Assembly (NCBI RefSeq): GCF_017308075.1
Contig: NZ_JAFKFX010000057.1
Coordinates: forward strand, 1 to 35,098
Length of the DNA stretch: 35,098 nt
Direction of reading: 5' to 3'
Source of the DNA: Allobosea sp.
GTDB taxonomy: Bacteria > Pseudomonadota > Alphaproteobacteria > Rhizobiales > Beijerinckiaceae
The notes beneath the pieces were generated by a model. That model was not told where the DNA came from and searched no databases. It worked only from the letters and a program-made list of their open reading frames with translations. Below, piece by piece: positions 642 to 20,709 of this stretch (within the stretch, counting starts at the first letter, position 1; each line of letters starts with the position of its first letter). A program made the position numbers and the translations under genes.

Positions 642-705
642 GGCACTGCTCCGTCGATCGGGTTCTGGCCTGATGATGAGGATCGCAACTGATAGTCCGT
701 CCGCC

Positions 706-719
706 TTGATCCAAAGCAA
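706..719 (-). promoter_or_regulatory. Candidate FixK/FNR box (TTGATCCAAAGCAA)
   Basis: Matches TTGAT-N4-ATCAA in 9 of 10 positions. Its centre is 71.5 bases upstream of the ATG at 641, compatible with activation from about -41.5 and a leader of about 30 bases. It is read with the other boxes of this neighbourhood; alone it would be weak evidence. Confidence 0.55.
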
Positions 720-741
720 AAGGAACGCGCTCGCCGTAAAT

Positions 742-755
742 TTGATCGCTCGCAA
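742..755 (+). promoter_or_regulatory. Candidate FixK/FNR box (TTGATCGCTCGCAA)
   Basis: Matches TTGAT-N4-ATCAA in 8 of 10 positions and sits 82.5 bases upstream of the ATG at 831. Together with the site at 706 it gives one box per direction in the divergent promoter region 642-830. Confidence 0.42.
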
Positions 756-830
756 GGCGATAAGCAACCGAACATGCCTCGATTGCGCCTTGTCGGAACT
801 CAGGCCTGCAGCTCTTTTGGGAGATTAACG

Positions 831-2438
831 ATGGCGATGGCGGACGCGCGGCGCGAAACTGGTATCCGCCTTTGTTTCCACGGCGCCGCCCGCGCCGTCA
901 CCGGCTCCTGCTTCGCCCTTCGGACAGAGCATGCACAAATCCTCGTCGATTGCGGTCTGTTCCAAGGGTCGAAAACTGAAAAGGAACTGAACTACCGGGC
1001 GTTTCCCTTCGATCCCGCGGCGATCGATGCCGTGCTCCTGACGCACGCCCACATCGATCATAGCGGTCTGCTGCCCAAGCTGGCGAAAGACGGTTTCCTG
1101 GGTCCGATTTTCGCAACCGCAGCGACCGTCGATCTCTGCTCGGTGATGCTGCCCGATTCCGGGCATATCCAGGAAATGGAGGTCGAACAGCTCAACCGGC
1201 GAAATGCGCGGCGTGGCCGTGCGGCGGTAGAGCCGATCTACGGGGCCGAACAGGCCGTCACGACCCTCACACAGTTTCGTGCCGTTCCGCTCGGCAAGCT
1301 GGTGGCGATCACCGAAGGGATTCGGGCGCGATACTGGGATGCCGGCCATCTGCTGGGCTCGGCCTCGATCGAGATCGAGATCGACCGGCCGGGCGGAACG
1401 CCGCTTCGGATCCTCTTCTCGGGAGACGTCGGTTCCAGCCTCAAGCCGTTCCATGCCAGCCCCACCGGTCCGAAGGGTGTCGACTACGTCGTCTGCGAAA
1501 CGACCTACGGCGATGTCGATCGGGACGACGTGACGCTCGACCAGCGCCTGCTCTTGCTGCAAGCCGAGGTGGCAGCTGCGGCACAGCTCTCGGGGCCGCT
1601 GCTCATTCCCTCCTTCGCCGTAGAACGGACCCAGGAGCTGCTTGTCGATCTCATCCGCCTGATGAAAGCGGGGCGCATCCCGCAAGCGCCGATCTTCGTC
1701 GATTCACCGCTCGCCACCAAAGCCAGCACGGTCTTCGAGCGACATGCCGGCGAGATGGCGAATGGCGAAGCCCTGCTCGATGCCTTGCAGGACCCGCGAG
1801 TCCGGTTCACGGAATCGGTCGAGCAAAGCAAGGCCATCGACCGCATCCGCGGCTTTCACATCGTGATCGCGGCGAGCGGCATGTGCGATGCCGGGCGCAT
1901 CCGGCATCATCTCAAGGAATGGCTGTGGCGCGGCGCTGCGACGATCCTCTTCGTCGGCTTTCAGGCTCAGGGAACGCTCGGCCGAATCCTGCTCGATGGC
2001 GCCCGCCATGTGCGGCTGATGGGCGAGGACGTCCAGGTGAAGGCGCGCATCCGCTCGATCGACGTCTACTCCGGCCATGCCGACGGGCCTCAGCTTGCCG
2101 CCTGGATCGCTGAGCGGCGGCCGATCTCCGGCTCGGTCTTTCTGACGCATGGCGAGGAGCACGCCATGCTCGGTTTCGCCGACAGATTGAAGGCGGTAGA
2201 TCCCGACCTGCTGGTCATCGAGCCGACGCTCGACAGCGTGTTCGCGCTTCCGGGCGGGGCGCCTTGCCAGATCGGTGGCCCGGTGCGCACTGCGGCGGAA
2301 TGCGCCGGCCGGCTCGATTGGCACAACGAACTTTCCAGCCTGATCCTCGATATCGACGAGCAGATGTCTTTGGCTGCGGACGAACGGGCGCGCAAACAGA
2401 TCGTCAGGCGGCTGCGGAAGGCTCTCGCCGCTGAATAA
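831..2438 (+). CDS. MBL-fold beta-CASP metallo-hydrolase (RNase/CPSF-like)
   Basis: A 535-residue protein with a metallo-beta-lactamase core and a beta-CASP insert. The zinc motif HAHIDH is at about 72-77, the beta-CASP DSPLA motif near 291-295, and the C-terminal SGHAD motif at about 414-418, followed by an RNA-specificity tail (VFLTHGEEHA). The family includes archaeal and bacterial CPSF-like ribonucleases acting in the cytoplasm; the RNA target is unknown. The ATG at 831 is preceded by GGGAGA at about 6 bases, so the upstream extension to 774 is rejected. A candidate FixK box lies at 742-755. Divergent from the host-attachment gene and followed by 408 bases with no large gene. Confidence 0.88.
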   Translation: MAMADARRETGIRLCFHGAARAVTGSCFALRTEHAQILVDCGLFQGSKTEKELNYRAFPFDPAAIDAVLLTHAHIDHSGLLPKLAKDGFLGPIFATAATVDLCSVMLPDSGHIQEMEVEQLNRRNARRGRAAVEPIYGAEQAVTTLTQFRAVPLGKLVAITEGIRARYWDAGHLLGSASIEIEIDRPGGTPLRILFSGDVGSSLKPFHASPTGPKGVDYVVCETTYGDVDRDDVTLDQRLLLLQAEVAAAAQLSGPLLIPSFAVERTQELLVDLIRLMKAGRIPQAPIFVDSPLATKASTVFERHAGEMANGEALLDALQDPRVRFTESVEQSKAIDRIRGFHIVIAASGMCDAGRIRHHLKEWLWRGAATILFVGFQAQGTLGRILLDGARHVRLMGEDVQVKARIRSIDVYSGHADGPQLAAWIAERRPISGSVFLTHGEEHAMLGFADRLKAVDPDLLVIEPTLDSVFALPGGAPCQIGGPVRTAAECAGRLDWHNELSSLILDIDEQMSLAADERARKQIVRRLRKALAAE

Positions 2439-2467: not shown

Positions 2468-2635
2468 TCAGCGGGAGATGATGTGGCGTATGAGGCTGAA
2501 GAAGGCGCGTACATGGAGCCAGAAAGCGGTGGCGGGCTTCTGATCGAGTTCAGTTGTGATCGGCAGGGCGCGCCTGTCCCGCCAAGACAGCCAAGCCTGC
2601 CTGAGCCGTGCAATCCAGGTGCTTGCTTCGGGCAT
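2468..2635 (-). CDS. Possible small basic protein, 55 residues
   Basis: The frame from ATG 2635 encodes a short protein rich in Trp, Arg and His, with a more hydrophobic tail (AFWLHVRAFFSLIRHIISR). I recognise no family. In its favour, an anaerobox at 2691-2704 is centred 62.5 bases upstream, the same geometry as at the larger genes, with CATCAT-like DNA in the -10 zone. Against it, the ribosome site (GAAGAG) is weak and the length is within chance for high-GC DNA. The longer frame to 2716 would place the box inside the coding region, so I prefer the inner start. Confidence 0.3.
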   Translation of the reverse strand: MPEASTWIARLRQAWLSWRDRRALPITTELDQKPATAFWLHVRAFFSLIRHIISR

Positions 2636-2846: not shown

Positions 2847-4433
2847 ATGCCGCTTGCCAGCCAGAACGAAACGATCTGCTTCCTGGGATCATGCGACGCC
2901 TTTGGCGGCGGCGCGGCGGGGATGGAGATGATCTCGACCCATATCTCGGTCGTTCTGCTGATCGGTGCCCGTGCTCTCAAGCTGAAGCGCGCGGTCAAGC
3001 TGCCCTATGTGGATCTGTCGACACCGGCGCGGCGGTGGGCGATGTGCGAGCGGGAACTGCTGCTGAACCGCCGGACGGCTCCGGATCTCTATCGCGCAGT
3101 CCATCGGATCACCCGCGAGCAGAGCGGCGAGCTCGCGCTGAACGGTCGAGGCGAGCTGGTCGATGCCGTCCTGGAAATGGTGCGCTTCAACGAGAACTTC
3201 CTGTTCGATCGGCTGGCGCAGAGACAGTGCCTCACCGCGTCGGGAATGACTGATCTGGCGGAGGCTATCGCCCGGCTTCATCGCGGGGCAGCCGTTTCGC
3301 CGGACGGCGAGGGCGCCAGCCGGATGGAGCGCGTGCTCGCGGTCAATGAGCGAGCTTTTGCCAATGCCGACATCCTCTCGCGCAGCGAGGTCGAGCCCGT
3401 CACAACAGGGTGCCGGGAGGCGCTGGCGCGCCATGCAGGCTTGCTGGACCTGCGGGCTCGCAACGGGAAGGTTCGGCGGGGGCATGGCGATCTGCACCTG
3501 CGCAACATCTGCCTGTTCGAGGGCAAGCCGCTGCTCTTCGACTGTCTCGAGTTCGATGAGGACCTGGCGACCGTGGACATCCTCTACGATCTCGCCTTCG
3601 TTCTGATGGATCTGTGGCACCGCAAGCTCGAACCGCTCGCGAACGTCCTCTTCAACCGCTATCTCGACGCCATCGACGATGAGACGGGTCTTCGCCTGTT
3701 GCCGTTCTTCATGGCGGTGAGGGCGGCCGTGCGCGCGCATGTCGCCGCGGTCGATAGCGGCAGGTCGGAGGCTTCCCGATTGGCCGAGGCGCGTGGCTAT
3801 CTCGAGCTCTGCTGCCGCCTGCTGAAGGCGAGCCCGCCTGTCCTCGTCGCGGTCGGAGGCTATTCCGGTTCGGGGAAGTCGACGCTCGCGGCGAAGCTCG
3901 CACCGATGCTCGGGCCGCCGCCCGGAGCCCGCATCGCCGCGAGCGATCGCATCCGCAAGACGCTCTGCGGCGTTCCCGTCGAGACCCGGCTTTCGGCGGA
4001 GGCATACGGTGCCGAGGTTTCCGCCCGGACCTATCGCGCCATGATGCAGCGTGCCGAGGTGGCATTGGCGCAGGGGCACGCCGCTGTCGCCGACGCGGTC
4101 TTCGATCGCCGGATCGAGCGCGAACGGATCGGCGAGGTAGCCAGGCGCGCAGGCATGCCGTTTTGCGGCCTCTGGCTTCAGGCCCCCCGGGAGACGCTTG
4201 TGCAACGTGTCGCGGCAAGGCGTGGCGATCCCTCCGATGCCACGCCTGGTGTCGTGATGGACCAGATCGCCCGGCATGGCGCGGCGACGGAATGGACCAG
4301 AATTTCGGCGCAGGAGAACATCGATCTCGTCACGACAGCCGCTCTGGCGGCAATAAGATCACATGCCGGCGCCGCAGCGGTTTGGCCGAGCCCGGCCCGT
4401 GCGCGACCGGGGGCTCCGGCGGCGACGGCCTAG
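2847..4433 (+). CDS. Bifunctional aminoglycoside phosphotransferase-like / P-loop kinase protein
   Basis: A 528-residue fusion. The N-terminal part begins with the family-typical block ISTHISVVLLIGARALKLKR and contains an APH/choline-kinase-type catalytic loop (HGDLHLRN, about 213-220) followed by FDCLEFDEDLATVDILYDLAF. The C-terminal part is an AAA_33/zeta-toxin-like ATPase with Walker A GYSGSGKST at about 338-346. Such fusions are widespread in proteobacteria and have no firmly assigned substrate; aminoglycoside resistance should not be assumed. The ATG at 2847 has CGGAG about 6 bases upstream and the N-terminus matches the family start. A FixK-like box is at 2782-2795. It converges on the histidine kinase gene. 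Confidence 0.85.
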   Translation: MPLASQNETICFLGSCDAFGGGAAGMEMISTHISVVLLIGARALKLKRAVKLPYVDLSTPARRWAMCERELLLNRRTAPDLYRAVHRITREQSGELALNGRGELVDAVLEMVRFNENFLFDRLAQRQCLTASGMTDLAEAIARLHRGAAVSPDGEGASRMERVLAVNERAFANADILSRSEVEPVTTGCREALARHAGLLDLRARNGKVRRGHGDLHLRNICLFEGKPLLFDCLEFDEDLATVDILYDLAFVLMDLWHRKLEPLANVLFNRYLDAIDDETGLRLLPFFMAVRAAVRAHVAAVDSGRSEASRLAEARGYLELCCRLLKASPPVLVAVGGYSGSGKSTLAAKLAPMLGPPPGARIAASDRIRKTLCGVPVETRLSAEAYGAEVSARTYRAMMQRAEVALAQGHAAVADAVFDRRIERERIGEVARRAGMPFCGLWLQAPRETLVQRVAARRGDPSDATPGVVMDQIARHGAATEWTRISAQENIDLVTTAALAAIRSHAGAAAVWPSPARARPGAPAATA

Positions 4434-4562: not shown

Positions 4563-6476
4563 TCAGTCGAGTAGCAGGCGCAAGCGTGTCGCCAGCTCCC
4601 GCGCCGTGTACGGTTTTTTCAACCAGCTTCCTTCCGCGAGCTCGCGACCGGCCAAACTCGGCTCGGCATAGCCTGATGTGAAGAGGACCTGCAGGTTCGG
4701 CCGAAGACGGCGGGCTTCTCTGGCCAACTCATCGCCGAACATGCCACCCGGCATGACGACATCGGTGAACAGCAGTCGGATCTCGGGGTGCGAGACAACC
4801 AGCGAAAGCGCCTGCTCGCCATTCGCAGCCTGGATGACGCGATATCCTTCCTCTTCGAGGCGCGCGACGACGACTTTCCGGACGCGGACATCGTCCTCGA
4901 CCACGAGGATGCATTCGTCCGCCCGCGCCTTGGGGGCAGGAGCCGGATTGACATTGCCGGCTTCGGCTTGGGGATCCGGGCTTGCCGCCGGCAGGAACAA
5001 CCGCACGGTCGTTCCCTCGTCGAGTTCGCTGTAGAGCTGGACATGGCCGCCCGATTGTCGCGCGAAGCCATAGACCATGCTGAGGCCGAGCCCGGTGCCG
5101 GCGCCCACGCCCTTGGTGGTGAAGAAGGGCTCGAAGGCCCGCTGCTTCACCTCTTCGGTCATCCCGGCGCCGGTATCGGAGACGCTGGTGAGCACATAGT
5201 CGCCAGGCCGGACCTGCGGATACATCTGAACATAGTCGGCATCGAGATGGACCGGCCCGATCTCGAGCCTGAGGCGTCCGCCGCGCGGCATCGCGTCCCG
5301 GGCATTCAGCGCAAGGTTCAGCAGGGCATTCTGCAACTGGGTGGTATCGACGAGCGCCGTGAGAGAATCGCCGGTGATGACGGTCTGCAACTCGATCGTT
5401 TCACCCAGCGTCCTGCGAAGCAGTTCGGTGAAGGTCGAAACGAGCTGCCCGATATCCGTCAGCTTCGCATTGAGGGCCTGCCGCCTGCCGAAGGCGAGAA
5501 GTTGCCCCGTGAGCTTGGCGCCGTCGTCGGCCGCGCCCTGGGCCTCGCGCAGCAGTTCCCGGAGACGGTCATCATTGAGGCGTCGCTCGATCATTTCGAG
5601 GTTCCCGCTGATGACGGTCAGCAGGTTGTTGAAGTCATGGGCAATCCCGCCTGTGAGCTGGCCGATGGCTTCCATCTTCTGGGACTGGCGCAACTCCTCT
5701 TCCATCCGGTGCCGGCCGGTCAGGTCGCGGATAAAGCCCGTGAAGATGCGCTTGCCGTTGGCTGAGGCTTCCCCGACCGCAAGCTCCATGGGGAAGGTCG
5801 TTCCGTCCTTGCGCTGGCCTGTGACCACCCGCCCGAAGCCGATGACGCGCCGTTCTCCTGTCGTCAGATAGCGGCTGATATATCCGTCATGCTGGTCGCG
5901 ATCGGGATTTGGCATCAGAATCCGAACATTCTGCCCGCAGACTTCGTCGGCCGTGAATCCGAACAGCTTCTCCGCAGCCTTGCTGAACGACAGCATGCTG
6001 CCGGCTTCGTCGATCACCACCATCGCTTCCGGTACCGTTTCGAGGATGGAGAGCAGGTGTGACTGCCGGGCGGCGAGAGCAGCCTGCGCGTTCTTCAAAT
6101 CGGTGATGTCGATGTTCGTCGCCAGGACCACGAGGTCTTCAGGGGCCTGCCGGGCCACGACGACCCAGCGGCTTACTACGACGATCGATCGTCCATCCCT
6201 GTGGCGCTGAGTCAGCTCGCCTTTCCAGGTCCCGTCCCGGCGCAAGTCCCGGAGGATGTCTGCGAGCGGTTCCGGAAATTCCGTCTTCAGGAGCTGGCGG
6301 ACGTTCTGCTCGAGAGCTCCCTGCGCAGTCCAGCCGTAGAGATCCTCGCAGCCCCCGCTCCAACGAAGAATCCGTCCCGCGAGCTCGAAGACGATGATGT
6401 TGGCGTCATCGAGGACCTGGACGATCTCATCCAGGCTCCGCTGGCTGATCGCCCTTGGCCTGCGTGCTGCCGTCAT
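4563..6476 (-). CDS. FixL-like heme-PAS hybrid histidine kinase
   Basis: A 637-residue soluble kinase with no obvious membrane segment. Order: PAS 1 (about 15-125), PAS 2 (about 140-255), HisKA with phospho-acceptor His280 (GGIAHDFNN), HATPase_c (about 375-497, with DTGAGM and GTGLGLS), and a C-terminal receiver with Asp572 and Lys621. PAS 2 closely resembles the FixL oxygen-sensing domain: [18 protein letters not shown] places His196 at the heme-ligand position, and Arg216, 20 residues on, matches the distal Arg of FixL, in [16 protein letters not shown]. The presence of heme is inferred. It starts 9 bases after the FixK-like gene, so the two are probably co-transcribed. The fused receiver recalls the hybrid FixL proteins of Rhizobium etli and R. 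leguminosarum. Confidence 0.88.
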
Positions 6477-6485
6477 TGCCGCCTG

Positions 6486-7238
6486 TCAATGCGCTCGCAT
6501 GGCCTGCCGGCCGAGAGGTATGCCATCCAGATCATGGTATTCGTCACCGCCGTCGGCAAGGCTTTTCAAGAGCGCCGGCTTGCGTATCGTAAAGCGATAG
6601 CGCGCGCTTGACTGGATGACGCCCCGCCTGATCAAGTTCGTCATCGTTCTCGAGACCGTTTCGATCGTCAGCCCCAGATAGTCCGCCATGTCGATCCGGC
6701 TGATCGGGATTTCAATCTCTGAGGCGGGCCCGTTATCGTTCCCGGCACGCCGCGCGAGCGTGAGCAGGAGGTCGCAAACCCGCTCCTCGGCCTTCTTGCG
6801 GGTGAGGAGCACCATTCTGGCCTGCGCGCTTGCCATCTCCCGATACAGCCAGTTGATGAATTGGGGCCGCAGTTGTTCGGAGCTGTCGACCGCTTGCTGA
6901 AAGCGATTCCGGCTGAGCCGGCGCAGCTTTACTTCCCCGACGGCCTCGGCGTCTCCGAGATAGCGCTCATCCGGAGCAAGGCCGAAGATTTCGCCGGGAT
7001 AGAAGAAGTCCGTGATGACGCGGCTGCCATCGTTGAGGATCTTGGCGATACGGACAAGGCCGCTCACGATCTTGAAGACATGCATCGCCGGATCGTCGTC
7101 CCGAAACACGGCTTGGCCGCGCTCGAACGTTTCCAGGGGCTGCTGGCTGAAAAGTCCCAGCAAGCCGGATTTGGGCTGATCGTTCGGGACAATGTGCAAC
7201 GGGGAAGGAAAGTGAGACGCCGCACTCGCAACAGACAT
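6486..7238 (-). CDS. FixK-class Crp/Fnr transcription regulator
   Basis: A 250-residue regulator with an N-terminal cyclic-nucleotide-type sensor fold (about 28-140), a dimer helix, and a C-terminal winged helix (about 176-220). The recognition helix TIETVSRTM carries Glu193, Ser196 and Arg197, the E..SR signature of FNR/FixK proteins that read TTGAT-N4-ATCAA. It lacks the cysteine cluster of iron-sulfur FNR and has a single Cys (155), so it is FixK-class rather than an oxygen sensor itself. I chose ATG 7238 because GGAGGA precedes it at about 8 bases; the GTG at 7253 overlaps that site. It heads an operon with the FixL-like kinase and is divergent from the response regulator. Confidence 0.87.
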   Translation of the reverse strand: MSVASAASHFPSPLHIVPNDQPKSGLLGLFSQQPLETFERGQAVFRDDDPAMHVFKIVSGLVRIAKILNDGSRVITDFFYPGEIFGLAPDERYLGDAEAVGEVKLRRLSRNRFQQAVDSSEQLRPQFINWLYREMASAQARMVLLTRKKAEERVCDLLLTLARRAGNDNGPASEIEIPISRIDMADYLGLTIETVSRTMTNLIRRGVIQSSARYRFTIRKPALLKSLADGGDEYHDLDGIPLGRQAMRAH

Positions 7239-7328: not shown

Positions 7329-7344
7329 TGTCACAGATTGTAAC
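7329..7344 (-). promoter_or_regulatory. Direct repeat GTTACA-N4-GTGACA upstream of the FixK-like gene
   Basis: On the minus strand two near-identical hexamers are spaced 10 bases apart, one helical turn, as in binding sites of OmpR/PhoB-type regulators. The repeat lies about 90-105 bases upstream of the FixK-like start and just before the response regulator gene. From memory it resembles the K-box bound by FxkR upstream of fixK in Rhizobium etli; that comparison is unverified. Confidence 0.45.
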
Positions 7345-7376
7345 ATCAATCAGTGACCCAAGCTCCACGGTCCGCC

Positions 7377-8120
7377 ATGGCCGAGCCGACATCATGCAGC
7401 GCTCATATTCTGGTCGTGGATGACGATCCGCGCATTCGCCAAATGCTGACCCGCTACTTCGAAAATGAAGGCTATCAGGTCAGTGCCGTGGCGGACGGGC
7501 AGGGCATGCGGGATGCGCTGCAGCGCGACGCGATCGACATCGTTCTGCTCGACCTGATCCTGGGCGGCGGAGAGGACGGATTGATGCTTGTCCGCGAAGT
7601 CCGCACAAGCTCGGACATGCCCATCATCATGCTGAGCGGGCGGGATGATGTCGTGGACCGGATCGTCGGACTCGAGATGGGGGCCGACGACTACATCGCA
7701 AAGCCGTTTCATCTGCGCGAGGTCCTGGCGAGACTGCATAGCGTGCTGCGGCGGCACCATGCGCAGCCGCCCCAAGCGATCGACGGCGAAGGCGAAGACG
7801 TCATCCGGTTCAATGGATGGTTATTGAATCCCCGCGAACGCCGGCTGGTCGCACCCGAGGGCACGGAAGTCGCGTTGACGACGGGAGAGTTCGACATTCT
7901 CCTGGTGATGGCCAAGCATCCTGGCCGGGTCTTCTCGCGCGACAGGCTGATGAATTTGACGAGAGGCCGCCATTACGAGGCGCCTGACCGGGTGATCGAT
8001 GCTCAGATCTCGCGTCTGCGCAAGAAAATCGAAGCGGGCAAACATCCTGCGAGCCTGATCAAGTCGGTCCGCGGCGTTGGCTACGTCTTCACCGGTCAAG
8101 CATCCGAGCGAGCGAGCTGA
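7377..8120 (+). CDS. OmpR/PhoB-family response regulator
   Basis: About 247 residues. A receiver domain has the acidic pair Asp15/Asp16, phospho-acceptor Asp59 (VLLDLILGG) and Lys109 (YIAKPF). A C-terminal winged-helix DNA-binding domain (about 135-240) ends in the typical SLIKSVRGVGYVFT block. No kinase lies beside it in the same direction; the divergent FixL-like hybrid kinase is the obvious partner. A direct repeat of the kind such regulators bind lies in the shared promoter region. The start is uncertain: GTG at 7353 is in frame and neither candidate has a clear ribosome site; I prefer ATG 7377 because it gives a normal N-terminal length. Confidence 0.86.
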   Translation: MAEPTSCSAHILVVDDDPRIRQMLTRYFENEGYQVSAVADGQGMRDALQRDAIDIVLLDLILGGGEDGLMLVREVRTSSDMPIIMLSGRDDVVDRIVGLEMGADDYIAKPFHLREVLARLHSVLRRHHAQPPQAIDGEGEDVIRFNGWLLNPRERRLVAPEGTEVALTTGEFDILLVMAKHPGRVFSRDRLMNLTRGRHYEAPDRVIDAQISRLRKKIEAGKHPASLIKSVRGVGYVFTGQASERAS

Positions 8121-10671: not shown

Positions 10672-10685
10672 TTGATCTCCAACAA
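10672..10685 (-). promoter_or_regulatory. Candidate FixK/FNR box (TTGATCTCCAACAA)
   Basis: Matches TTGAT-N4-ATCAA in 9 of 10 positions, centred 71.5 bases upstream of the phosphoketolase ATG. On the minus strand a -10-like TATCGA follows 23 bases after the box, as expected for an activator at -41.5. Confidence 0.58.
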
Positions 10686-11608: not shown

Positions 11609-12499
11609 TCAGTGAGCGAGGAGCAACGGCACTGGAGAACCGTCGAGCAAATCCGCGGTGACGCCACCCAGCACCCATTCCCTGAAACGCGAATGGCCGT
11701 AGGCTCCGATGACGATCAGATCCGCCGAGATCCTCTTGGCTTCAGCGAGGAGCGCATCGGTCGGGGATGTCTGCGTGTTCAGGGCGGTTGCCGTCGCCTC
11801 AACGCCATGTCTGGCAAGGTGCGCGCTGATGTCGGCGAGGACTTCGGCACCGCCCATCCGTCCATGCGCTTCCTCCCTGACCGTGACGATATGAACCTGT
11901 GTCGCCCGGGTGATCAGAGGCAGCGCCTCGGCCACGGCGCGCGCGCTCTGGCGCGTATTGGTCCATCCGATCAGCACGGTCTTGATCGGGGAACGCAACG
12001 TGGCCCCGGGCGGCAGGAGATAGAGTCCTCTGCCTGCGTCGAACATGACGCTCTCGACCAGGGACCGCCAGCGGCCGTGGCCGTCTTCGCGTGGGCAGGT
12101 CGCGATGAAAAGGTCGTTCCAGCGGGCTTCGGTGGCGACGGCCTGTTCGAGAAGGCCGGGGAAGGCGTCCAGACGACGTATCTCATGCGCCGGGCCGAGG
12201 CGGGCCAGTCGTTGCCGCAGCCGCTTCTCGCAGACGTCCCCTTCCTCGCGGGCGGCATCGACCAACTGGCCGATCGCGCTGAGGCCGAAATCCCCGGCGA
12301 AGAGAGCGGGATCGGGCAGGGGGTTGGTGAAGATGCCCGTGATCCGAGCCGTGTAGCGCTCAGCAAGGGCTTCGGCGTGAGCCAGACGGGTCTCGTCTTC
12401 CGGTGAACCGTCGAGATGGACGGCGATGTCGCGATAGGCCAAGCCGCGAGCGGTCTGTGCGTTCGCCAAGGTGTTCGAAGAAGCGGTGATGTCGTTCAT
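11609..12499 (-). CDS. Universal stress protein, tandem UspA domains
   Basis: A 296-residue protein with two Usp folds. The first (about 20-160) starts RDIAVHLDGSPEDETRLAHA; the second (about 165-296) starts TVLIGWTNTRQSARAVAEAL and ends with the ATP-binding signature GAYGHSRFREWVLGGVT and PVPLLLAH. Such proteins act in the cytoplasm in energy and stress survival. ATG 12499 is preceded by GGAGG about 6 bases upstream. A perfect FixK/FNR consensus at 12577-12590 lies upstream, so low-oxygen induction is likely. It is divergent from the exporter operon and convergent with the acetyltransferase gene. Confidence 0.92.
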   Translation of the reverse strand: MNDITASSNTLANAQTARGLAYRDIAVHLDGSPEDETRLAHAEALAERYTARITGIFTNPLPDPALFAGDFGLSAIGQLVDAAREEGDVCEKRLRQRLARLGPAHEIRRLDAFPGLLEQAVATEARWNDLFIATCPREDGHGRWRSLVESVMFDAGRGLYLLPPGATLRSPIKTVLIGWTNTRQSARAVAEALPLITRATQVHIVTVREEAHGRMGGAEVLADISAHLARHGVEATATALNTQTSPTDALLAEAKRISADLIVIGAYGHSRFREWVLGGVTADLLDGSPVPLLLAH

Positions 12500-12576: not shown

Positions 12577-12590
12577 TTGATTTTTATCAA
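12577..12590 (-). promoter_or_regulatory. Perfect FixK/FNR box (TTGATTTTTATCAA)
   Basis: A 10 of 10 match to TTGAT-N4-ATCAA, centred 84.5 bases upstream of the universal stress protein ATG at 12499. It is the clearest anaerobox in the window and anchors the interpretation of the others. Confidence 0.75.
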
Positions 12591-12612: not shown

Positions 12613-12626
12613 TTGCGTTGCATCAA
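12613..12626 (+). promoter_or_regulatory. Possible second FixK/FNR box (TTGCGTTGCATCAA)
   Basis: Matches 8 of 10 positions. It is 65.5 bases upstream of the small leader ORF at 12685 and could drive the rightward exporter operon; the perfect box at 12577 drives the other direction. Confidence 0.35.
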
Positions 12627-12684: not shown

Positions 12685-12807
12685 ATGTTGCCGGCGCTTC
12701 AGTCCGATCCGCTGTCCTCCATCGAACCAAGGCGAGCGAGCCGATCCCGGATGATGCGCCCGGCCGGAACGCTGTCCGCAGCGACGAAACCATGGACCAG
12801 CGCGTGA
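12685..12807 (+). CDS. Possible 40-residue leader ORF coupled to the exporter operon
   Basis: The ATG at 12685 has a good ribosome site (GGAGAG, about 6 bases upstream). The frame encodes 40 residues (MLPALQSDPLSSIEP then an Arg-rich part) and its TGA at 12805-12807 overlaps the ATG at 12807 of the membrane fusion protein gene. That geometry, plus an anaerobox-like site at the right distance, suggests a leader peptide translationally coupled to the next gene. The peptide itself matches no family I know, and a chance ORF of this size is possible. Confidence 0.4.
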   Translation: MLPALQSDPLSSIEPRRASRSRMMRPAGTLSAATKPWTSA

Positions 12808-14090
12808 TGGATCAGCCGGCGCAGCAGCCGGATATTCGCCTGCTCGGGGCGAGCAAGGAGGCCGGCGGCGCTCGGCGCGTCCTCGGCGCTCTCTGGTCGC
12901 ATCGCTGGTTCGTCCTCGTGGCGGCGATCGCAACCGCAGTCGGAATGTGGCAGGCCACCCGCATACTGATCGGCCCGGCCGTTGCGGTCGACATCGTGCG
13001 GCGTGGCGATCTCGTCCAGACCGTGGTCGCCAGCGGCCATGTCGAGACCCCTTATCGCGTCGAGATCGGCAGCCAGATCACCGGGACCGTGGACGAGGTC
13101 TTGGTCGATCAAGGCCAGGCTGTGGTGAAAGGCCAGGCCTTGATCCTTCTGGACAGCCGCGAACTCAAGGCCGCGCTCGTGCAGGCACAGGGGACCTTGG
13201 CGCAAGCTGAAGCGCGAGAACGGCAATTGCAGGAGCTCACTCTGCCTTCGGCGAAGGAGGCGCTCGCTCAGGCTCAGGCCGTTTTGCTCAATGCGCAGCA
13301 TTCGTACGACCGTGCGACACAACTCCTGAATAGGGGAGCCCAGACGCATGCCGCGGTCGACGACGCGAAGAAGGCTCTCGATGTCGCGCGCACATTGGTG
13401 CGCAGCGCGGAATTGCAGGTTTTCACCGCCAGCTCGGGCGGCAGCGATGCCGTCATGGTGGATACCCAACTGGCGCAGGCGCGCGCGAATCTCGACAGTG
13501 CCGCGTCGCGCCTTGCATACGCGACGATAACCGCCCCACGAGCGGGTGTCCTGATTTCGCGGGCCGTGGAGCGCGGCACGGTCGTGCAGCCCGGCAAGGC
13601 TCTGATGGTGCTGGCGCCTGCCGGGGAAACGCAGCTCGTGATCCAGCTTGACGAGCGCAATCTCGGCCTCATCAAGCTGGGTCAAGCGGCGTTGGCTTCC
13701 GCCGATGCCTATCCCGATGGGCGCATGCAGGCGAAGGTCGTCTACATCAACCCGGGCGTCGACATCGCGCGGGCTTCCGTCGAGGTCAAGCTGGGGGTTC
13801 CCGAGCCGCCGGCCTATCTGCGCCAGGACATGACCGTCTCGGTCGATATCGAGACGGCTAGGCGTACGGACACACTCGTCGTTCCAGTGCGCGACGTTCA
13901 CGATGCGGGCACGGCTTCGCCCTGGGTCCTGGGGCTGAGCAAGGGGCGCGCCGTGAAACGTCCGGTCAAGCTTGGCTTGCGCGGGCAGAGCAGCGTCGAA
14001 ATCGTCGATGGGCTCGAAGCTGGCGATGCGGTGATACCGATCGGTTCCGGGGCGGTGACCGGTCAGAGGATCAGGGCGATCCGGCCATGA
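12807..14090 (+). CDS. Periplasmic adaptor (HlyD/MacA-like membrane fusion protein)
   Basis: About 427 residues. An N-terminal membrane anchor (FVLVAAIATAVGMWQ, about residues 30-45) leads to a lipoyl half-motif (VDIVRRGDLVQTVVASG, GQALILLDSREL), an Ala/Gln-rich coiled coil (about 110-220), a second lipoyl half (ATITAPRAGVLIS) and beta-barrel domains ending GLEAGDAVIPIGSGAV. Such proteins link an inner-membrane pump to the outer membrane or periplasm. Two in-frame starts exist, 12792 and 12807; I prefer 12807 because a ribosome site and a leader ORF ending there suggest coupling, but 12792 (5 more residues) cannot be excluded. Its TGA overlaps the next ATG (14087). Confidence 0.88.
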   Translation: MDQPAQQPDIRLLGASKEAGGARRVLGALWSHRWFVLVAAIATAVGMWQATRILIGPAVAVDIVRRGDLVQTVVASGHVETPYRVEIGSQITGTVDEVLVDQGQAVVKGQALILLDSRELKAALVQAQGTLAQAEARERQLQELTLPSAKEALAQAQAVLLNAQHSYDRATQLLNRGAQTHAAVDDAKKALDVARTLVRSAELQVFTASSGGSDAVMVDTQLAQARANLDSAASRLAYATITAPRAGVLISRAVERGTVVQPGKALMVLAPAGETQLVIQLDERNLGLIKLGQAALASADAYPDGRMQAKVVYINPGVDIARASVEVKLGVPEPPAYLRQDMTVSVDIETARRTDTLVVPVRDVHDAGTASPWVLGLSKGRAVKRPVKLGLRGQSSVEIVDGLEAGDAVIPIGSGAVTGQRIRAIRP

Positions 14091-15313
14091 TGCGCTGGCT
14101 CTCCTTCGTTTGGATCGGCGCGCTGCGCTTTCTCGGCGAGGGGCGGTTGCAGACGGGCTTCATCGTCGGCGGGATCACCATCGGCGTCGCCGTCATCGTC
14201 TTCATGTCGGCGATGCTCGCGGGGCTCGAGGCGAATTTCATCAAGCGCGTGCTGACCTCCCAGGCGCAGATCCAGCTCCTCCCGCCGAACCAGATCGCGC
14301 GGCCCCTGCGTAACGGCTCGAGTGAGATCGAGGACGCCATCGTGCAGCGTCCGAGCCAGCGCGTGATTTCGATCGATCAGTGGCAAGCGATTGCGCATCG
14401 CATGGAAGCGCTCCCTGCAGTCAGGGCCGTCGCGGCAAGCATGACGGGCTCGGCCCTGGCGATCCGCGGAGACGCCAGCCGGTCCGTCTCGGTCGTCGGT
14501 ATCCAGCCGGAGAGCTATCTCAAGGTCGTTCGACTGTCGGACTATATCGTGGCAGGCCAATTGCGTCTGACCAGCGACGATATCCTGATCGGGACGGATC
14601 TCGCGCGCGATCTCGGCGCGAGTCTCGGCGACAAGATTATTGTGAGCAGCAATGGCGGAGCGCGCCGGACGCTTACGGTGACGGCTCTGTTTGATCTCGG
14701 CAACAAGGGCGCGAACCAGCGCAACACCTATGTCGCGCTGCGCACCGCGCAATCCTTGCTCGGCGTTCTCGGCGGCGTGACCGAGATAGGGCTGACGATC
14801 AATAATATCTACGACGCGGAGAACATCGCGCGCGAGATCGAGTCCTCGAATGCTGTCGAAGCCGATAGCTGGATCAAGACCAACGCCCAGTTCTTCACGG
14901 CCGTGCAGGCCCAGAAATACACCAACACGCTGATACGCCTCTTCGTGGGACTCTCGGTCGCTTTCGGCATCGCCGCGGTGCTCGTGGTGTCGGTGATCCA
15001 GCGCTCGAAGGACATCGGCATCCTGCGCGCGATGGGCGCAACGCGCGGGCAGATTCTGCGTCTCTTCCTGCTCCAGGGCGGCTTGCTCGGCTTTGCCGGC
15101 TCGCTTGGCGGGTCGGTGCTCGGGGCGGCGGCACTGGTCTACTGGCACAGCATGGCGCGGCAGGCGGATGGCAGCGAGTTGTTCCCGCTGATCATCGAGC
15201 CAAGCCTTTTTGTCGCGACCGCACTGCTCGCCACATTGACGGGCGTCGCGGCGGCGATGGCGCCGGCGCTGAGGGCCTCGCGGCTCGATCCGGTGGAGGC
15301 GATCCGTGGCTGA
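14087..15313 (+). CDS. ABC transporter permease, FtsX/MacB type
   Basis: A 408-residue inner-membrane protein. One transmembrane helix lies near the N-terminus ([20 protein letters not shown]), then a large periplasmic domain, then three helices at the C-terminus (starting [20 protein letters not shown]), the FtsX arrangement of LolC/MacB/DevC transporters. The cytoplasmic loop [17 protein letters not shown] between the second and third helices is family-typical. It overlaps the adaptor gene by 4 bases and the ATPase gene by 8, so the three form one tripartite exporter. The cargo is unknown: MacAB-like systems move peptides, macrolides or lipids. Confidence 0.9.
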
Positions 15314-15998
15314 ACCCATCCTGGCGCTGAAGGACGTACGGAAATCCTATGCGGTCGGCCTGTCGACCGAGACGGAGGTGCTGCACGGGATCGATCTCGA
15401 GCTGGAGAGCGGCGGCTTCGTCGCGCTGGTCGGCCCCTCGGGCTCAGGCAAGAGCACGCTCCTCAACATCATCGGCCTGCTCGATCGTCCAACCAGCGGC
15501 GAACTGGCTATCGCAGGCCGTAAGACCAGCGAGCTCGACGATGCCCAGATCACGCATCTGCGCGGTCACCGGATCGGCTTCGTCTTCCAGTCGCATCTGC
15601 TGATCTCGGCATTCACCGCCCTTGAGAACGTGATGATGCCGATGGTGGTGTCGCGCGGACATGTGACGGAGGCGATCGAGGCACGAGGCCGCCATCTGCT
15701 GGACCGGATGGGAATCGCCCAGTTCGCGAACAATGGCGCGCTCAACATGTCGGGCGGGCAGCAGCAGCGTGTCGCGGTGGCGCGGGCATTGGCCATGCAG
15801 CCTGATCTCATCCTTGCCGACGAGCCTACGGGGAACCTCGACAGCAAATCGGCCGAGGTCGTGTTCACCTTGATGCGCGAGGAGAATGCACGCTCCGGCA
15901 CAAGCTTCCTGATCGTCACCCACAACATGGACCTTGCCCGTCGCTGCGATCGGATCATCACAGTGGTCGATGGGCGCATTGGCGGGAGCCCGGAATGA
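15306..15998 (+). CDS. ABC transporter ATP-binding protein, LolD/MacB type
   Basis: A 230-residue ATPase with Walker [10 protein letters not shown] (about 43-51), signature MSGGQQQR (148-155) and Walker B LILADEP (168-174), and a final TRG-like membrane-interaction set typical of the LolD/MacB ATPases. The start is GTG at 15306, overlapping the permease stop by 8 bases; this also places the family start ([14 protein letters not shown]) correctly. It ends in an ATGA overlap with the P-type ATPase gene. It powers the permease encoded just upstream. Confidence 0.92.
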
Positions 15999-18592
15999 CG
16001 TCGGAGCCCGTGACGGTGGCCACGCCAGGCGAAGGGGCGTTCTGGCGCGAAGGCCGGACGCAATTGCAGCAGCGCCTCGGCGCGACACCGGACGGCTTGA
16101 GCGGCAGCGAGGCGGCCGAACGGCTGCGTCGCTGCGGGCCCAATGTCGCGGTGACCAGCCTGCGGCGCGGGCTGCCGTTCAAGATCGCCAAGCGGCTCGT
16201 CGAGCCTCTGATCGCGATCCTTCTGATCGCTGCGTTGATCTCGGGCGCGACAGGCGATTGGCAGAGCCTGATCATCATCGTTCTCATCGTGCTGGCTTCG
16301 ATCGCCCTCGACGTCGTCCAGCAAACACAGGCAGAGAACGCCGTCGACGCACTGCGCCGCACCGTCGCGGTCCGGGTCGCGGTCCTTCGGAGCGGAAGAA
16401 CCGTCGAAATTCCGCTGCGGGAGGTGGTTGCGGGAGACGTCGTCATCCTCCATGCGGGCGATCTGATCCCGGCGGACGGCCTGATCCTCGACAGCAAGGA
16501 TGCGATGGCCGACGAGGCGGTGCTCACCGGCGAGCCATTTCCGGTCGAGAAGCTGGCGGCTGCCGCCGATCCTGGGGCTGACGGCAGCGATGCGGCGCTT
16601 TTCGGCGGGACGAGCCTGGTCGCCGGCGAGGCCCGTATGCTCGTCGCCGCGACGGGCGCCGATACCCGGCTCGGCTCGATCGCCCGATCCATGCAGGCGG
16701 GCGAGCCGCCCACAGCCTTCGAGCGCGGCGTCCACGGCCTCGGCATGCTGATCCTGCGCCTGACCGGCTTCCTGGTGCTGTTCGTCTTGCTGACCCAGCT
16801 CGTACGCAATGGTCTGTCGATCGAGAGCTTCCTGTTCGCCGTCGCGCTGGCCGTAGGCCTGACGCCGGAACTGCTGCCGGTGGTGATGACGGTGACGCTC
16901 GCGCGCGGTGCGATGCGAATGGCCCAGCGTCAGGTCGTGGTGAAGCGCCTCTCCGCAATTCACGATCTCGGGGCGATGGACGTGCTTTGCACCGACAAGA
17001 CCGGGACGCTGACGGAAGCGCGGATCGCCCATGTCGGAAGCTTCGGCTGTGACGGAGTCGAAAGTGCGCGCGTTACGGAGCTTGCCTGTCTGAACAGCCG
17101 CTTTTGCAGCGGGCTGCGCAACAATCTCGATACAGCTCTGCTCGCCAGCGCGGGAGAGGGGGACGGCTCCTGGCGTTGCCTGGCCGATCTGCCGTTCGAT
17201 TTCCAGCGGCGGCGATCCTCGGTCCTCGTGGCGAGGGGCGACGAGCGGGAAATGATCGTCAAGGGTGCGCCCGAAGCCTTGCTCGCCCTGTGCGACCGGT
17301 TCGAGCGCGTGGATGGCGATGCCGGCGAGCTCGACGATGCCTGCCGGAAACGGCTCCTCGCCCTGATCGAAGGCAAGGGAGCGGAGGGGCTGCGCCTGCT
17401 CGGTGTCGCCCATAGGCGGATGCCGGCGGGCACCGTGGAGCTGTCTCGCGATGATGAGGCCGGGCTCGTCTTTACCGGTTGCGCCGCCTTTATCGATCCA
17501 CCCAAGGCTTCGGCCGGTGTGGCGATCCGAGAGCTCGCGGTGGCTGGCGTGCGCGTCAAGGTGATCTCCGGAGATGCGGCTCCCGTCGTCCGCCATCTGG
17601 CCGAAACGCTGTCGCTGCCTGCGCGGGGCCTGATGACCGGCGAGGAGATCGCTGCATTGGGGGATGCCGCCCTGGCGTCCCGCGTTCGCCATGTCGACCT
17701 CTTCGTGCGGGTCGCGCCGGAGCAAAAGGCGCGCATCGTGCTGGCGTTGCGCAAGGCAGGGCACACGGTCGGTTTCATCGGCGACGGTATCAACGATGCT
17801 CCGGCCATTCACGCCGCTGATGTCGGTCTCTCCGTCGAGGGCGGTATCGAAGTTGCGCGTGAGGCCGCGGCGATCGTCCTGCTCGCGCCCGATCTCGGCG
17901 TGCTCGCACAGGGCATCGCCGAGGGCCGGCGCACCTACGCGAACATCATGAAGTATGTCCGCATGGGCACGAGCTCGAATTTCGGGAACATGCTCTCCAT
18001 GGCGCTGGCTTCGATGGTGCTGCCGTTCCTGCCACTCAACCCGCTGCAGATCCTGATCAACAACATGCTCTATGATCTTTCCGAGGTCGGCATTCCCTTC
18101 GATGAAGCTGACGCTGCCGATCTCGCCAGGCCGCAACATTGGGACATGAGCGCCGTACTGCGCTTCACACTGGTGATGGGACCATTGTCGTCGCTTTTCG
18201 ATGCGGCAACCTTCGCCGTCCTGCTCGGCATTTTTGGCGCCGGCGTCGAGACGTTCAGGACGGCCTGGTTCGTCGAGTCGATCCTCACGCAGATCCTGGT
18301 GATCTTCGTCATCCGCACGGCGGCTCCCTGCTGGCGAAGCCGGCCGCACCGCATCCTCGTCGCAACCTCGCTCGGCGCTCTCGCCGTCGCGTTGGTCCTA
18401 GCCCTGACGCCTCTCGGGCAGCCTTTCGGCTTCGTCGCGCTCTCGGTGCCGCTTCTGGTCACGATCCTGGCAATCGCGGCCCTCTACCTCGCCTGCGCCG
18501 AGATCCTGAAGCCGTACGCGATCCGGCCGGGGAGGCGAGGAGGACGCGCGCGCTCCAGCGAACTCACGTTCCGTCGCTTCCGGCCGTTCTGA
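15995..18592 (+). CDS. Cation-transporting P-type ATPase, MgtA-like (P3B)
   Basis: An 865-residue inner-membrane pump. The actuator motif TGE is at about 178-180, phosphorylation motif DKTGTLT with Asp334, KGAPEAL in the nucleotide domain, and [16 protein letters not shown] from about 596. The membrane segment [24 protein letters not shown] and the C-terminal [30 protein letters not shown] block resemble MgtA/MgtB magnesium importers more than calcium pumps. The cation is inferred only from this likeness. Its ATG overlaps the stop of the ABC ATPase gene (ATGA), so it is the last gene of the exporter operon, an unusual pairing. Its 3' end overlaps the converging gene by 29 bases. Confidence 0.9.
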
Positions 18593-19607
18593 GCCCCGGC
18601 GCGTCAGGAGGCTGTCCTGCCAGCGAAGCCGGACTTCCCGGCGAAGCGTCGAGCGCTCGCGTGACGAGACCGTACTTGACCGTGGTCAAGGCGAGGTTGC
18701 GTGCCCAGTCGACCACGTCGTTCCACGGATCGACGATCCGCCCGGTTGCCGACAGGAAGGTGACGACGGTGGCTATCTCGGTCTGCTCTTGCACGACCAG
18801 GACGCAGCCGATGCCGAGAACGAGCAGGTTGCCCAAGGAGTATGTCAGGTTCATCAGAAAGTTGAGCGAGAACTTGATCTCGAAGATTCCGAGGTTGATC
18901 GAGAAGACCTCGTCCAGGCGGCGCACGCTTGATTCTGATTTCGAGGGCGACAGGATCTCATCGCCGAAATGCCGCAGAATACGGGTGCGCTGCGCCACCC
19001 GGCGGTTGATCGCTCGCTGCATCAGCGGCACGAACACGAATTGCGGTGTCAGAATAAGAATGCTGACGAACATCATCTTGATGTCGAGTACGGCGAGATA
19101 GATGAAGACGCTTGCCAGAAAGCCGATCTCGACGATCGGCAGGCTCAGGCTCGAGCCCACGAAGGCGCCGATGTCATCCGCCTCGGCGAGGATCATCGCG
19201 AGGCCGGTCCCGCTGCTGAGCGGGCTGTCCTCGGCGCTCAACCCTTCGAGGCGCCTCGTGACGACAAGTCGCAGATCCCGGGTGGCGTATTCGCCGAGCC
19301 AGGCGCGATAGACGTTCATCACCAGTTTCGCCAGCCCGAAGGCCACCAAGATCGCGAGCTGTACGGCGGCGAGCGTCAGGATCGTGGAGAGCGGGCCGGC
19401 ATGGACGGCTGTGTCGATGATCCGCCGTTGCGTCTCGATCGGAAAGGCATTGAGAAGGAAGACCGCAACGGACAGGGCGCAGACCGCTGCCTGATGCCAG
19501 CCCCCCGACCAGATCACAAAACGCAGGAACGAGGCGGGGAGGAGCAAGCTCTCGGCGTGCTGGCGCGGGGGCTCCGCTATCGACGCTATGAGCCGCGGGA
19601 GCTTCAT
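18564..19607 (-). CDS. ABC-type six-helix transmembrane protein without an ATPase domain
   Basis: A 347-residue membrane protein with about six helices, for example AVCALSVAVFLLNAFPI near 40-57, LAILVAFGLAKLVMNVY and GFLASVFIYLAVLDIKMMFVSILIL. The layout matches the transmembrane half of type I ABC exporters (YATRDLRLVVTRRLEGL is the intracellular coupling region). No Walker motifs are present and the protein ends soon after the last helix, so it is an orphan membrane domain like those in the ABC_membrane_3 group. Its ATG overlaps the stop of the dehydrogenase gene (ATGA), implying co-translation. Function unknown. Its tail overlaps the P-type ATPase gene by 29 bases. Confidence 0.78.
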   Translation of the reverse strand: MKLPRLIASIAEPPRQHAESLLLPASFLRFVIWSGGWHQAAVCALSVAVFLLNAFPIETQRRIIDTAVHAGPLSTILTLAAVQLAILVAFGLAKLVMNVYRAWLGEYATRDLRLVVTRRLEGLSAEDSPLSSGTGLAMILAEADDIGAFVGSSLSLPIVEIGFLASVFIYLAVLDIKMMFVSILILTPQFVFVPLMQRAINRRVAQRTRILRHFGDEILSPSKSESSVRRLDEVFSINLGIFEIKFSLNFLMNLTYSLGNLLVLGIGCVLVVQEQTEIATVVTFLSATGRIVDPWNDVVDWARNLALTTVKYGLVTRALDASPGSPASLAGQPPDAPGLRTAGSDGT

Positions 19608-20587
19608 GGCAGCAGGACCGCCGCGCCTTGCAACCGGCCGGAGCGCAGATCCGACAGAGCCTCGTTCGCCCGTTCCAGCGGGTAGACCGTGGTTTTCGTC
19701 CTGATATCGGCCTGGCGCGCGACGGACAGGAATTCCCGGCCGTCCGCCCGGGTGAGATTGGCGACCGAGACCAGTTCACGTTCCTGCCAGAGCAGGTCGT
19801 AAGCGAAGCTCGGGATGTCGCTCATATGGATGCCGCCGCAGACGACGCGCCCGCCCTTGGCGACGGCGCGCAAGGCCAGCGGGACCAGCGCCCCGACCGG
19901 GGCGAAGATCAGGGCGGCGTCGAGCGGTTCCGGCGGAATCTCCTCGGAGCTTCCCGCCCAACGCGCTCCGAGCGAGCGGGCATGGGCTTGCGCCGCTTCG
20001 TCGCCCGGGCGGGTGAAAGCATAGACCTCGCGGCCCTGCCAGCGGCAGATTTGCGCAAGAATGTGCGCGGCCGCGCCGAAGCCGAACAGGCCGATCCGCC
20101 GGGCGGCGCCGGCACAGCGCAGGCTGCGCCAGCCGATCAGCCCGGCGCACATCAGTGGCGCGGCAGCGACGGGGTCGGGGAACTCATCCAGGGGGAAGAC
20201 ATAGGCCGCATCGGCGACGACATGGGTGGCGAAGCCGCCATCGCAGGTAAAGCCGGTGAATTCTGGTGCGTCGCACAAATTCTCCCGGAGCGTGCGGCAA
20301 TAGGCGCAATGCCCGCATGTATGCGCCAGCCAGCCGAGGCCGACGCGCCGACCGATCCATTCCCGGGCGACGCCCGTTCCGACCAGATCGACCCGGCCGA
20401 CGACTTCATGGCCCGGAATACGCGGGCAATGCAGACCGGGCAGTTCACCGTCGACGACATGAAGATCGGTGCGGCAGATCGCACAAGCCTCGACCTTGAT
20501 CCGCAGTGTTCCGGCGCCGGGCAGGGGATCGGGGCGCATCTCTTCGACGAGCGGGCGGCCGACAGCGTCCAGAACCATCGCCTTCAT
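19604..20587 (-). CDS. Zinc-dependent alcohol dehydrogenase family protein
   Basis: A 327-residue medium-chain dehydrogenase. Catalytic zinc ligands are Cys38, His60/Glu61 (PGHE) and Cys147; structural zinc cysteines are 91, 94, 97 and 105 (CGHCAYC). The nucleotide fold has GLFGFGAAAH at about 166-175. The type interconverts primary alcohols and aldehydes with NAD(P). ATG 20587 follows a GGGGA site. An anaerobox-like sequence at 20643-20656 is 62.5 bases upstream, consistent with a fermentative role at low oxygen. It is the first gene of an operon with the orphan ABC membrane protein. Confidence 0.92.
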   Translation of the reverse strand: MKAMVLDAVGRPLVEEMRPDPLPGAGTLRIKVEACAICRTDLHVVDGELPGLHCPRIPGHEVVGRVDLVGTGVAREWIGRRVGLGWLAHTCGHCAYCRTLRENLCDAPEFTGFTCDGGFATHVVADAAYVFPLDEFPDPVAAAPLMCAGLIGWRSLRCAGAARRIGLFGFGAAAHILAQICRWQGREVYAFTRPGDEAAQAHARSLGARWAGSSEEIPPEPLDAALIFAPVGALVPLALRAVAKGGRVVCGGIHMSDIPSFAYDLLWQERELVSVANLTRADGREFLSVARQADIRTKTTVYPLERANEALSDLRSGRLQGAAVLLP

Positions 20588-20642
20588 GGGGTTTCCCCGC
20601 TCTATGCGCGAGCAAACCTACTTGAGCGAAGAAGTTTCGGCT

Positions 20643-20656
20643 TTGACCAAGCTCAA
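20643..20656. promoter_or_regulatory. Candidate FixK/FNR box (TTGACCAAGCTCAA)
   Basis: Matches TTGAT-N4-ATCAA in 8 of 10 positions. It lies 62.5 bases from the dehydrogenase ATG (leftward) and 60.5 bases from the ATG of a decayed rightward gene (20710), so it may once have served both. TAGGTT follows on the minus strand at the -10 distance. Confidence 0.45.
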
Positions 20657-20709
20657 GGAGCGCGTGGCTTTCGGAGCGCATGCTGGCGGAAGTCTAGAAG
20701 GGAGAGGTC

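Follow-up and report, generated by a model that had tools for sequence, protein, structure and literature searches.

The hFixL-FxkR-FixK cascade has been described together with the anaerobox, TTGAT-N4-ATCAA, and the K-box, GTTACA-N4-GTTACA (PMC7888657), and its origin has been placed in the common ancestor of Rhizobiaceae (PMC4999443; this and all other publications are cited here for the sections accessible to us). Among the FixK2-dependent genes tabulated for Bradyrhizobium diazoefficiens are those for phosphoketolase, a universal stress protein (Usp), and a host-attachment protein, with boxes at −89, −72, and −69 (PMC9104804). Of six comparisons tabulated for FixK of R. palustris TIE-1, one shows the phosphoketolase transcript down 9.4-fold, and the others show little or no change (PMC3050613). 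Here we analyze an array of eight anaeroboxes, with a FixK-type regulator encoded in its midst, on the complete contig NZ_JAFKFX010000057.1 (C49; 35,098 nucleotides, hereinafter the window) of the 5.55 Mb draft genome of Allobosea sp. (assembly GCF_017308075.1), which we discuss jointly with other Bosea genomes.

We consider it likely that the window contains a FixK-type low-oxygen regulon island of a Bosea chromosome in which the eight boxes are read by FixK via an hFixL-FxkR cascade; the case is built on box enrichment, conservation, spacing, a −10-like promoter signal, a K-box, and protein families. The array is genuine and looks functional, and its mechanism is a known one; what is new is the location and the apparent ease of sensor exchange. 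Among the titles and abstract openings of openly accessible papers on Bosea and FixK, and on hFixL or FxkR, none was found that concerned this circuit in Bosea.

The anaerobox array

A sequence-only reading of the window had listed eight sites matching TTGAT-N4-ATCAA (scored as matching positions out of 10) at 706, 742, 2691, 2782, 10672, 12577, 12613, and 20643. All eight are where it placed them, in non-coding DNA and with 8–10 matching positions, the site at 12577 being perfect. Across the window, 19 matches with at most two mismatches were found against 5.87 expected, a number that none of 100 shuffles reached; according to a hand-made gene list, 11 of these are intergenic and 8 coding. 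Within the 5476 bp of intergenic DNA, the 11 matches at ≥8/10 compare with 1.15 in dinucleotide shuffles (0 of 500 reached 11), and at ≥9/10, there are 5 intergenic matches against 0.11 in shuffles and none in coding DNA. The three intergenic matches outside the list (20993, 21363, and 31411) do not have intact outer TTG...CAA triplets. The catabolic island had been said to be free of boxes, and the matches there are indeed either coding or without these outer triplets.

The background in the same genome was estimated from 20 stretches of 20 kb (400 kb altogether) taken at round coordinates and processed with the same gene caller, with 14 permuted palindromes as controls. At ≥9/10, no intergenic site was found in these 400 kb (permuted-palindrome mean 0.50), compared to 5 in the window's first 20.8 kb (mean 0.07) and 23 in 255 kb of the islands of relatives (mean 0.21). 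The density in the window is far above that in both the shuffled sequences and the 400 kb of background DNA, the two kinds of background against which the sequence-only reading had proposed to judge it. Of the 30 exact copies of TTGA-N6-TCAA in the genome, 5 are on this 35 kb contig. One of the five (18676) is within a gene, and the other four are intergenic, every one 58–85 bp ahead of a start codon. Among 23 of the 25 exact sites elsewhere, 13 are within called genes and 10 are intergenic, and 2 of the 23 lie 45–95 bp ahead of a called start; the remaining two lie in intergenic DNA of contig C42, one at 62 bp ahead of a called start.

The eight boxes were aligned with the corresponding regions of two relatives, G016 and G017 (the phosphoketolase region with G017 only). 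Identity was 139 of 150 at half-site positions, 43 of 60 in spacers, 298 of 528 in the 20-bp flanks, and 499 of 869 in the rest of the aligned sequence; because box positions were taken from the window only, this count presupposes no matches in the relatives.

Promoter geometry was examined in 33 island loci chosen for carrying the regulator or orthologues of the genes discussed here. These loci contain 134 intergenic boxes, compared to an average of 2.07 for control palindromes, and among the 164 box–start pairs up to 300 bp apart, 42 are separated by 60–69 bp. When 53 non-redundant one-direction promoters were oriented to the gene and the box was set at −41.5, the A/T content was elevated at −12, −11, −8, and −7 (40, 40, 38, and 34 of 53, respectively; background 0.36; p from 5.5e-9 to 2.9e-5) and not at −10 and −9 (22 and 23 of 53), with values of 0.36–0.49 at the mirror-image positions on the other side of the box. 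Activation at −41.5, as originally suggested by the distances in the window, is strongly supported by the density, the conservation, and the −10-like signal at the predicted place; with the transcription starts themselves predicted, the anaeroboxes appear to sit at class II activation distance. A nearly invariant G is present two bases downstream of the box (−33 in this centring) in 48 of the 53 promoters, compared to 17 of 53 at the mirror-image position, and is possibly a −35 contact.

The regulator genes amid the boxes

The genes in the center of the array are predicted to form an hFixL-FixK-FxkR circuit like that of Rhizobium, which agrees with the earlier suggestion that the matching regulator is encoded in the middle. 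The regulator (6486–7238, minus strand; start at 7238 or 7253) belongs to the CRP/FNR family and is denoted FixK-type here on the strength of its domain (Pfam), helix, and gene context. Its best solved relative is FixK2 (4i2o; E 7.6e-29), with which it has the ETVSR recognition helix in common, GLTIETVSR being aligned; E..SR recognition helices have specificity for TTGAT. There is no cysteine in the N-terminal half of the protein, that is, it is without the FNR iron-sulfur cysteine set, in contrast to the FnrN-like protein encoded on C42. The score is below the cut-off of the NCBIfam equivalog model for FixK (Caulobacter), 146.7 versus 300 bits; the model is narrow, given that FixK from a FixLJ island likewise falls short of the cut-off (229.6 bits).

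Next to fixK lies the gene for an hFixL-like hybrid kinase (4563–6476, minus strand), with the domain order PAS, FixL-type PAS, HisKA, HATPase, and receiver, identified from Pfam and from structure and sequence matches. The second PAS domain matches FixL heme-PAS structures at about 1e-44, and His196 and Arg216, which we take to be the heme-contact residues, are invariant in 10 of 10 cases. Among the 40 of 511 records that were listed, hFixL-like proteins of Rhizobiaceae are 62–67% identical to the window protein over ~96% of the length. Among the best 80 loci in a profile scan of genome contigs, only three (L050, L051, and L052) were near full-length at ≥61% identity, the others showing ≤52% in the best segment.

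On the other side of fixK, an FxkR-like response regulator is encoded (7353–8120, plus strand; start at 7353 or 7377; Pfam Response_reg and Trans_reg_C), which is of the OmpR type and not of the FixJ/LuxR type. This gene adjoins fixK in all 12 loci where FixK is ≥47% identical to that of the window and is not adjacent to it in the three loci with a more distant FixK (L047–L049). The gap between the two genes contains a direct repeat resembling the FxkR operator, TGTNAC-N4-TGTNAC (7329–7344), that agrees with the published K-box at 11 of 12 positions. Counted by eye, 10 of the 13 aligned loci have the strict repeat and three deviate from it by one base; with a degenerate pattern, all three Rhizobiaceae plasmid loci examined show a K-box-like repeat ahead of fixK. 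An inverted-repeat pattern considered for the same gap matched the window only. No anaerobox was detected upstream of the fixK or fxkR orthologues (12 loci each, with only 105 and 12 bp of upstream sequence visible in L045/L046), of hyp18 (one orthologue), or of the hFixL orthologues; no more than a 7/10 match, at −6, precedes the hFixL gene of the window.

By analogy with the characterized relatives, a drop in oxygen would cause the heme-PAS hFixL-like kinase to activate the OmpR-type FxkR-like regulator, which would bind this K-box and turn fixK on. The FixK dimer, needing no iron-sulfur cluster, would bind the eight anaeroboxes and recruit RNA polymerase from there, each box being centered approximately 41.5 bp upstream of the predicted transcription start. 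The putative targets are the genes for phosphoketolase, Usp, an alcohol dehydrogenase (ADH), the host-attachment protein, a beta-CASP nuclease, a kinase fusion, and a 55-residue frame, along with an exporter/P-type ATPase operon; two pairs of boxes, each 36 bp apart, would serve divergent promoters.

Box–start pairs and gene remnants

The range of 58–85 bases originally given for the box–start distances holds for eight boxes and eight starts (from box center to start, in box order: 71.5, 82.5, 62.5, 58.5, 71.5, 84.5, 65.5, and 62.5 bp), after correction of the beta-CASP start, the identity of the supposed exporter leader, and the target of box 2691. The first box (706–719, 9/10) is paired with the start at 641 of the host-attachment protein gene (195–641, minus strand; Host_attach/baeRF family 12, with Pfam PF10116 at 1.1e-33 and PF18856 at 3.1e-33 on the longer frame to 767; the start was assigned by hand, and the gene caller agrees); in G016 (L033), boxes are at −106 and −70. 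The second box (742–755, 8/10), 36 bp from the first, precedes the beta-CASP nuclease of the metallo-beta-lactamase fold (831–2438, plus strand; Pfam PF10996 at 5e-35 on the frame from 774), with distances of 82 bp in G017 and 126 bp in G016. The start at 831 was adopted because a Shine-Dalgarno sequence and an in-frame ATG are conserved there, and the gene caller concurs; pairing of the box with the start at 774 was rejected, the distance being only 25 bp and the box lying at −82.5, not −25, from the true start. The top NCBIfam match of this protein is the type VII CRISPR Cas14 MBL/CASP model, far under the cut-off (319.8 versus 800 bits).

The third box (2691–2704, 9/10), conserved in G016, G017, and G067, is paired with the start at 2635 of the 55-residue frame (2468–2635, minus strand), which has no Pfam or family match and is 56% identical to L031:7267-7440 in G017. 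An intact counterpart of this frame is not evident in G016, although the box is retained there, and this appears to be the least sure of the eight pairings. The fourth box (2782–2795, 9/10) precedes the start at 2847 of the gene for a fusion of an APH-like kinase and an AAA_33 ATPase (2847–4433, plus strand; Pfam AAA_33 at 1.3e-23 and APH at 5.8e-9) and is located at −58 in G016 and G017, with differing spacers. Beyond the regulator genes, the xylulose-5-phosphate/fructose-6-phosphate phosphoketolase (XFP) gene (8217–10607, minus strand; Pfam XFP_N at 4e-172 on the frame from an upstream TTG) has its box at 10672–10685 (9/10), located at −61 in G017 and at −67 to −70 in G029, G067, and G069. 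The adjacent frame 10925–11461 (plus strand) is probably a real gene, with weak acetyltransferase similarity and DNA conserved in G017; minus-strand open reading frames of like size could mislead here.

The perfect box (12577–12590, 10/10) is paired with the start at 12499 of the Usp gene (11609–12499, minus strand; Pfam Usp at 6.4e-15 on a longer frame), from which it is separated by a gap with a 14-bp insertion relative to G016 and G017, where the box is at −71. Box 12613 (12613–12626, 8/10), 36 bp away, precedes the start at 12685 of a 40-codon open reading frame (12685–12807, plus strand). Rather than the leader of an exporter, as had been claimed, this frame is the 5′ remnant of an ADH gene, the rest of which is mostly missing; an ADH gene occupies this place in G016, G017, and G067. 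The genes that follow (12792–18592, plus strand) encode a MacA/HlyD-like adaptor, an FtsX/LolCE-like permease, an ABC ATPase, and a magnesium-type P-type ATPase (Pfam; NCBIfam TIGR01524, 740.5 bits versus a cut-off of 610.75). In G067, an intact ADH gene is followed by the same exporter genes, and in G016 and G017, ADH is present and the exporter absent. Insertion of the exporter behind a captured promoter was rejected in view of the G067 arrangement, which makes a deletion within a pre-existing ADH-exporter operon the more likely origin of the window's configuration. Box 12613, preceding the deletion remnant, would now drive the exporter via that remnant. The loss of ADH leaves the exporter operon beside the paired-box promoter (12577/12613).

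The last box (20643–20656, 8/10 and an exact TTGA-N6-TCAA) is paired with the start at 20587 of the zinc ADH gene (19604–20587, minus strand; Pfam ADH_N at 4.9e-26). This ADH-phaC divergent promoter is present twice in the genome. In the window copy, phaC is cut down to a 5′ remnant (approximately 20710–20830, plus strand, delimited by blastn to the other copy), and in the copy on contig C29 (L148, 1–2346), ADH is broken and phaC intact, with the paralogue of box 20643 located 60 bp from both the ADH fragment and the intact phaC. In the segment that separates the anaerobox island from the catabolic genes (~20830–21960), no Pfam-recognized gene was found among the frames tested; insertion-sequence remains may be present there.

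Candidate readers of the boxes and described systems

At least three regulators encoded in this genome share the GLTIETVSR recognition helix, namely, FixK of the window and, both on C42, a second FixK and an FnrN-like protein. Contig C42 (L045/L046) carries a second hFixL-FixK-FxkR set along with the FnrN-like gene, beside fixNOP-type genes; in the FnrN-like protein, CQSCGIRPMSIC is in frame upstream of the called start. The same genome contains a FixL-FixJ pair without an adjoining FixK match; a FixL-FixJ-receiver set (L273) is located ~200 kb from the second hFixL set on C42.

Several observations weigh against the assignment of the boxes to the local FixK alone. Counting boxes at −130 to −30 of orthologous genes across the genus, we found that the kinase fusion has one in 14 of its 17 copies where hFixL is present and in 7 of 10 in genomes without it (at 58–73 bp; none in G011, G064, and G074), and Usp, in 8 of 11 and 7 of 7 copies, respectively; for ADH, the counts were 4 of 6 with hFixL and only 1 of 6 without. 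The ADH gene of G040 and the kinase-fusion genes of G018 and G027 have no upstream box. Among the XFP promoters of other genomes, only 5 of 17 (G017, G069, G029, G067, and G010) have a box at ≥8/10, and none was found in G001, G008, and 10 more, G064 being outside the stretch examined; beyond the close clade, these promoters mostly have no recognizable box. By these counts, the boxes do not track the hFixL module across the genus; nor do they tell FixK from FnrN. Furthermore, at ≥8/10, the 400 kb of background contain 11 intergenic matches, compared to an average of 5.5 for the permuted palindromes, so that an 8/10 score alone is weak evidence; lone sites of this kind, such as 742 and 12613, are weak by themselves and are supported through conservation and pairing. 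Oxygen sensing, phosphotransfer, and activation are attributed to the window's proteins from characterized relatives. Of the local regulon originally claimed for the regulator, the box array and the central FixK stand; a dedicated regulon of its own is less certain, given the other regulators with the same helix and the persistence of boxes without hFixL.

Retention of the boxes in genomes lacking hFixL lowers our confidence in the reading by the local FixK and raises that in the main alternative, under which the boxes are real and FnrN or the second FixK is their principal reader, the local FixK being one of several readers of a genome-wide anaerobox regulon. In addition to that retention and to the same-helix proteins encoded on C42, this alternative is favored by the presence of such boxes ahead of ompW and phaC genes elsewhere in the genome, and we rate it at slightly below an even chance. 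Against it, the local fixK has a K-box of its own and, in the closest relatives of the window, lies beside its targets. Furthermore, hFixL, which was identified in 19 of 67 Bosea genomes (E ≤1e-180), co-occurs with XFP in 12 of the 67 compared to 5.4 expected (hypergeometric 1.7e-4, uncorrected for shared ancestry), the two being near each other in only 5 of these 12. Boxes of another CRP/FNR branch, Dnr/NnrR, which responds to nitric oxide, are a far less probable explanation: Dnr-type boxes have the same TTG...CAA core, but the gene content fits FixK regulons and the linked regulator is FixK-like. Least probable of all, and hardly credible for the set as a whole, are chance or codon-driven palindromes over-read by eye. 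GATC-rich near-matches are common, with at least 98 TTGAT-N4-ATCAA sites with no more than one mismatch in the genome, 5 of them in the window; nevertheless, density, conservation, spacing, and the promoter signal refute chance for the set, single 8/10 boxes being less certain. Reading by FixK under hFixL-FxkR control remains our preferred interpretation for the window.

The regulators themselves differ among the Bosea islands. In G003, G005, G069, and G086, the island regulators are FixL, FixJ, a receiver protein, and another FixK (the G086 stretch includes only FixK and part of the receiver, with FixJ just beyond), and the FixJ of G003 is above the NCBIfam cut-off (318.4 versus 255). In G015, a FixL-FixJ-receiver-FixK set lies ~45 kb away on the same contig. 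No match to these regulators was found in the 20-kb stretch of G029 that encompasses the ADH, Usp, phosphoketolase, beta-CASP, and host-attachment genes. Tentatively, and to us at not quite even odds, the conserved anaerobox promoters (kinase fusion, Usp, phaC, host-attachment/beta-CASP, and partly, ADH and phosphoketolase) might be construed as a shared socket for different oxygen-sensor cassettes, with the cis language fixed and the sensing step exchanged, probably along with the oxygen threshold. The cassettes would be as follows: hFixL-FxkR-FixK in G000, G016, G017, G067, and others; FixL-FixJ-receiver-FixK in G003, G005, G069, and G086; and none in the G029 stretch. The apparent exchange of sensors over partly conserved sites may reflect either the replacement of one set by the other or an ancestor with two sets, one of which was then lost. 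Where sister species have promoters in common and different sensors, they provide a natural test of oxygen-circuit rewiring. More generally, as conservation and promoter anatomy show here, an anaerobox array is legible from sequence against a low background.

Because published FixK regulons include these genes, the gene content of the window is ordinary for FixK. The predicted FixK extended regulon of alphaproteobacteria contains an HlyD protein, ABC subunits, phosphoketolase, a kinase, and a zinc ADH; unlike the present case, it is a family-level prediction, and the accessible part of that work describes no Bosea island (PMC2908626). A stretch of the Agrobacterium tumefaciens plasmid pQ15_94_1 (L132) encodes hFixL, FixK, and a response regulator beside phosphoketolase, two Usp genes, with boxes 60 and 76 bp ahead of them, and a P-type ATPase. 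It differs from the window in being plasmid-borne, in including acetate kinase and Hsp20, and in having no annotated host-attachment, beta-CASP, or kinase-fusion gene in the stretch examined.

With the cascade of Rhizobium leguminosarum and R. etli, the window shares the hybrid FixL, the OmpR-type FxkR, FixK, the direct-repeat K-box upstream of fixK, and the anaerobox (PMC7888657, PMC4999443). The window, however, is from Bosea, outside Rhizobiaceae, and its circuit neighbors stress and carbon genes rather than fixNOQP, whereas the C42 copy adjoins fixNOP-type genes; no nifH above the family cut-off was found in the genome. The hFixL-FxkR-FixK circuit would thus be extended to Bosea, beside stress and carbon-overflow genes. 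The FixLJ-FixK2 regulon of B. diazoefficiens has phosphoketolase, Usp, and host-attachment targets in common with the window, and AdhP and PhaC2 are among the proteins changed in low oxygen (PMC9104804, PMC6515984). There, the driver is FixL-FixJ and not hFixL-FxkR, whereas Bosea has both circuits, with overlapping gene islands.

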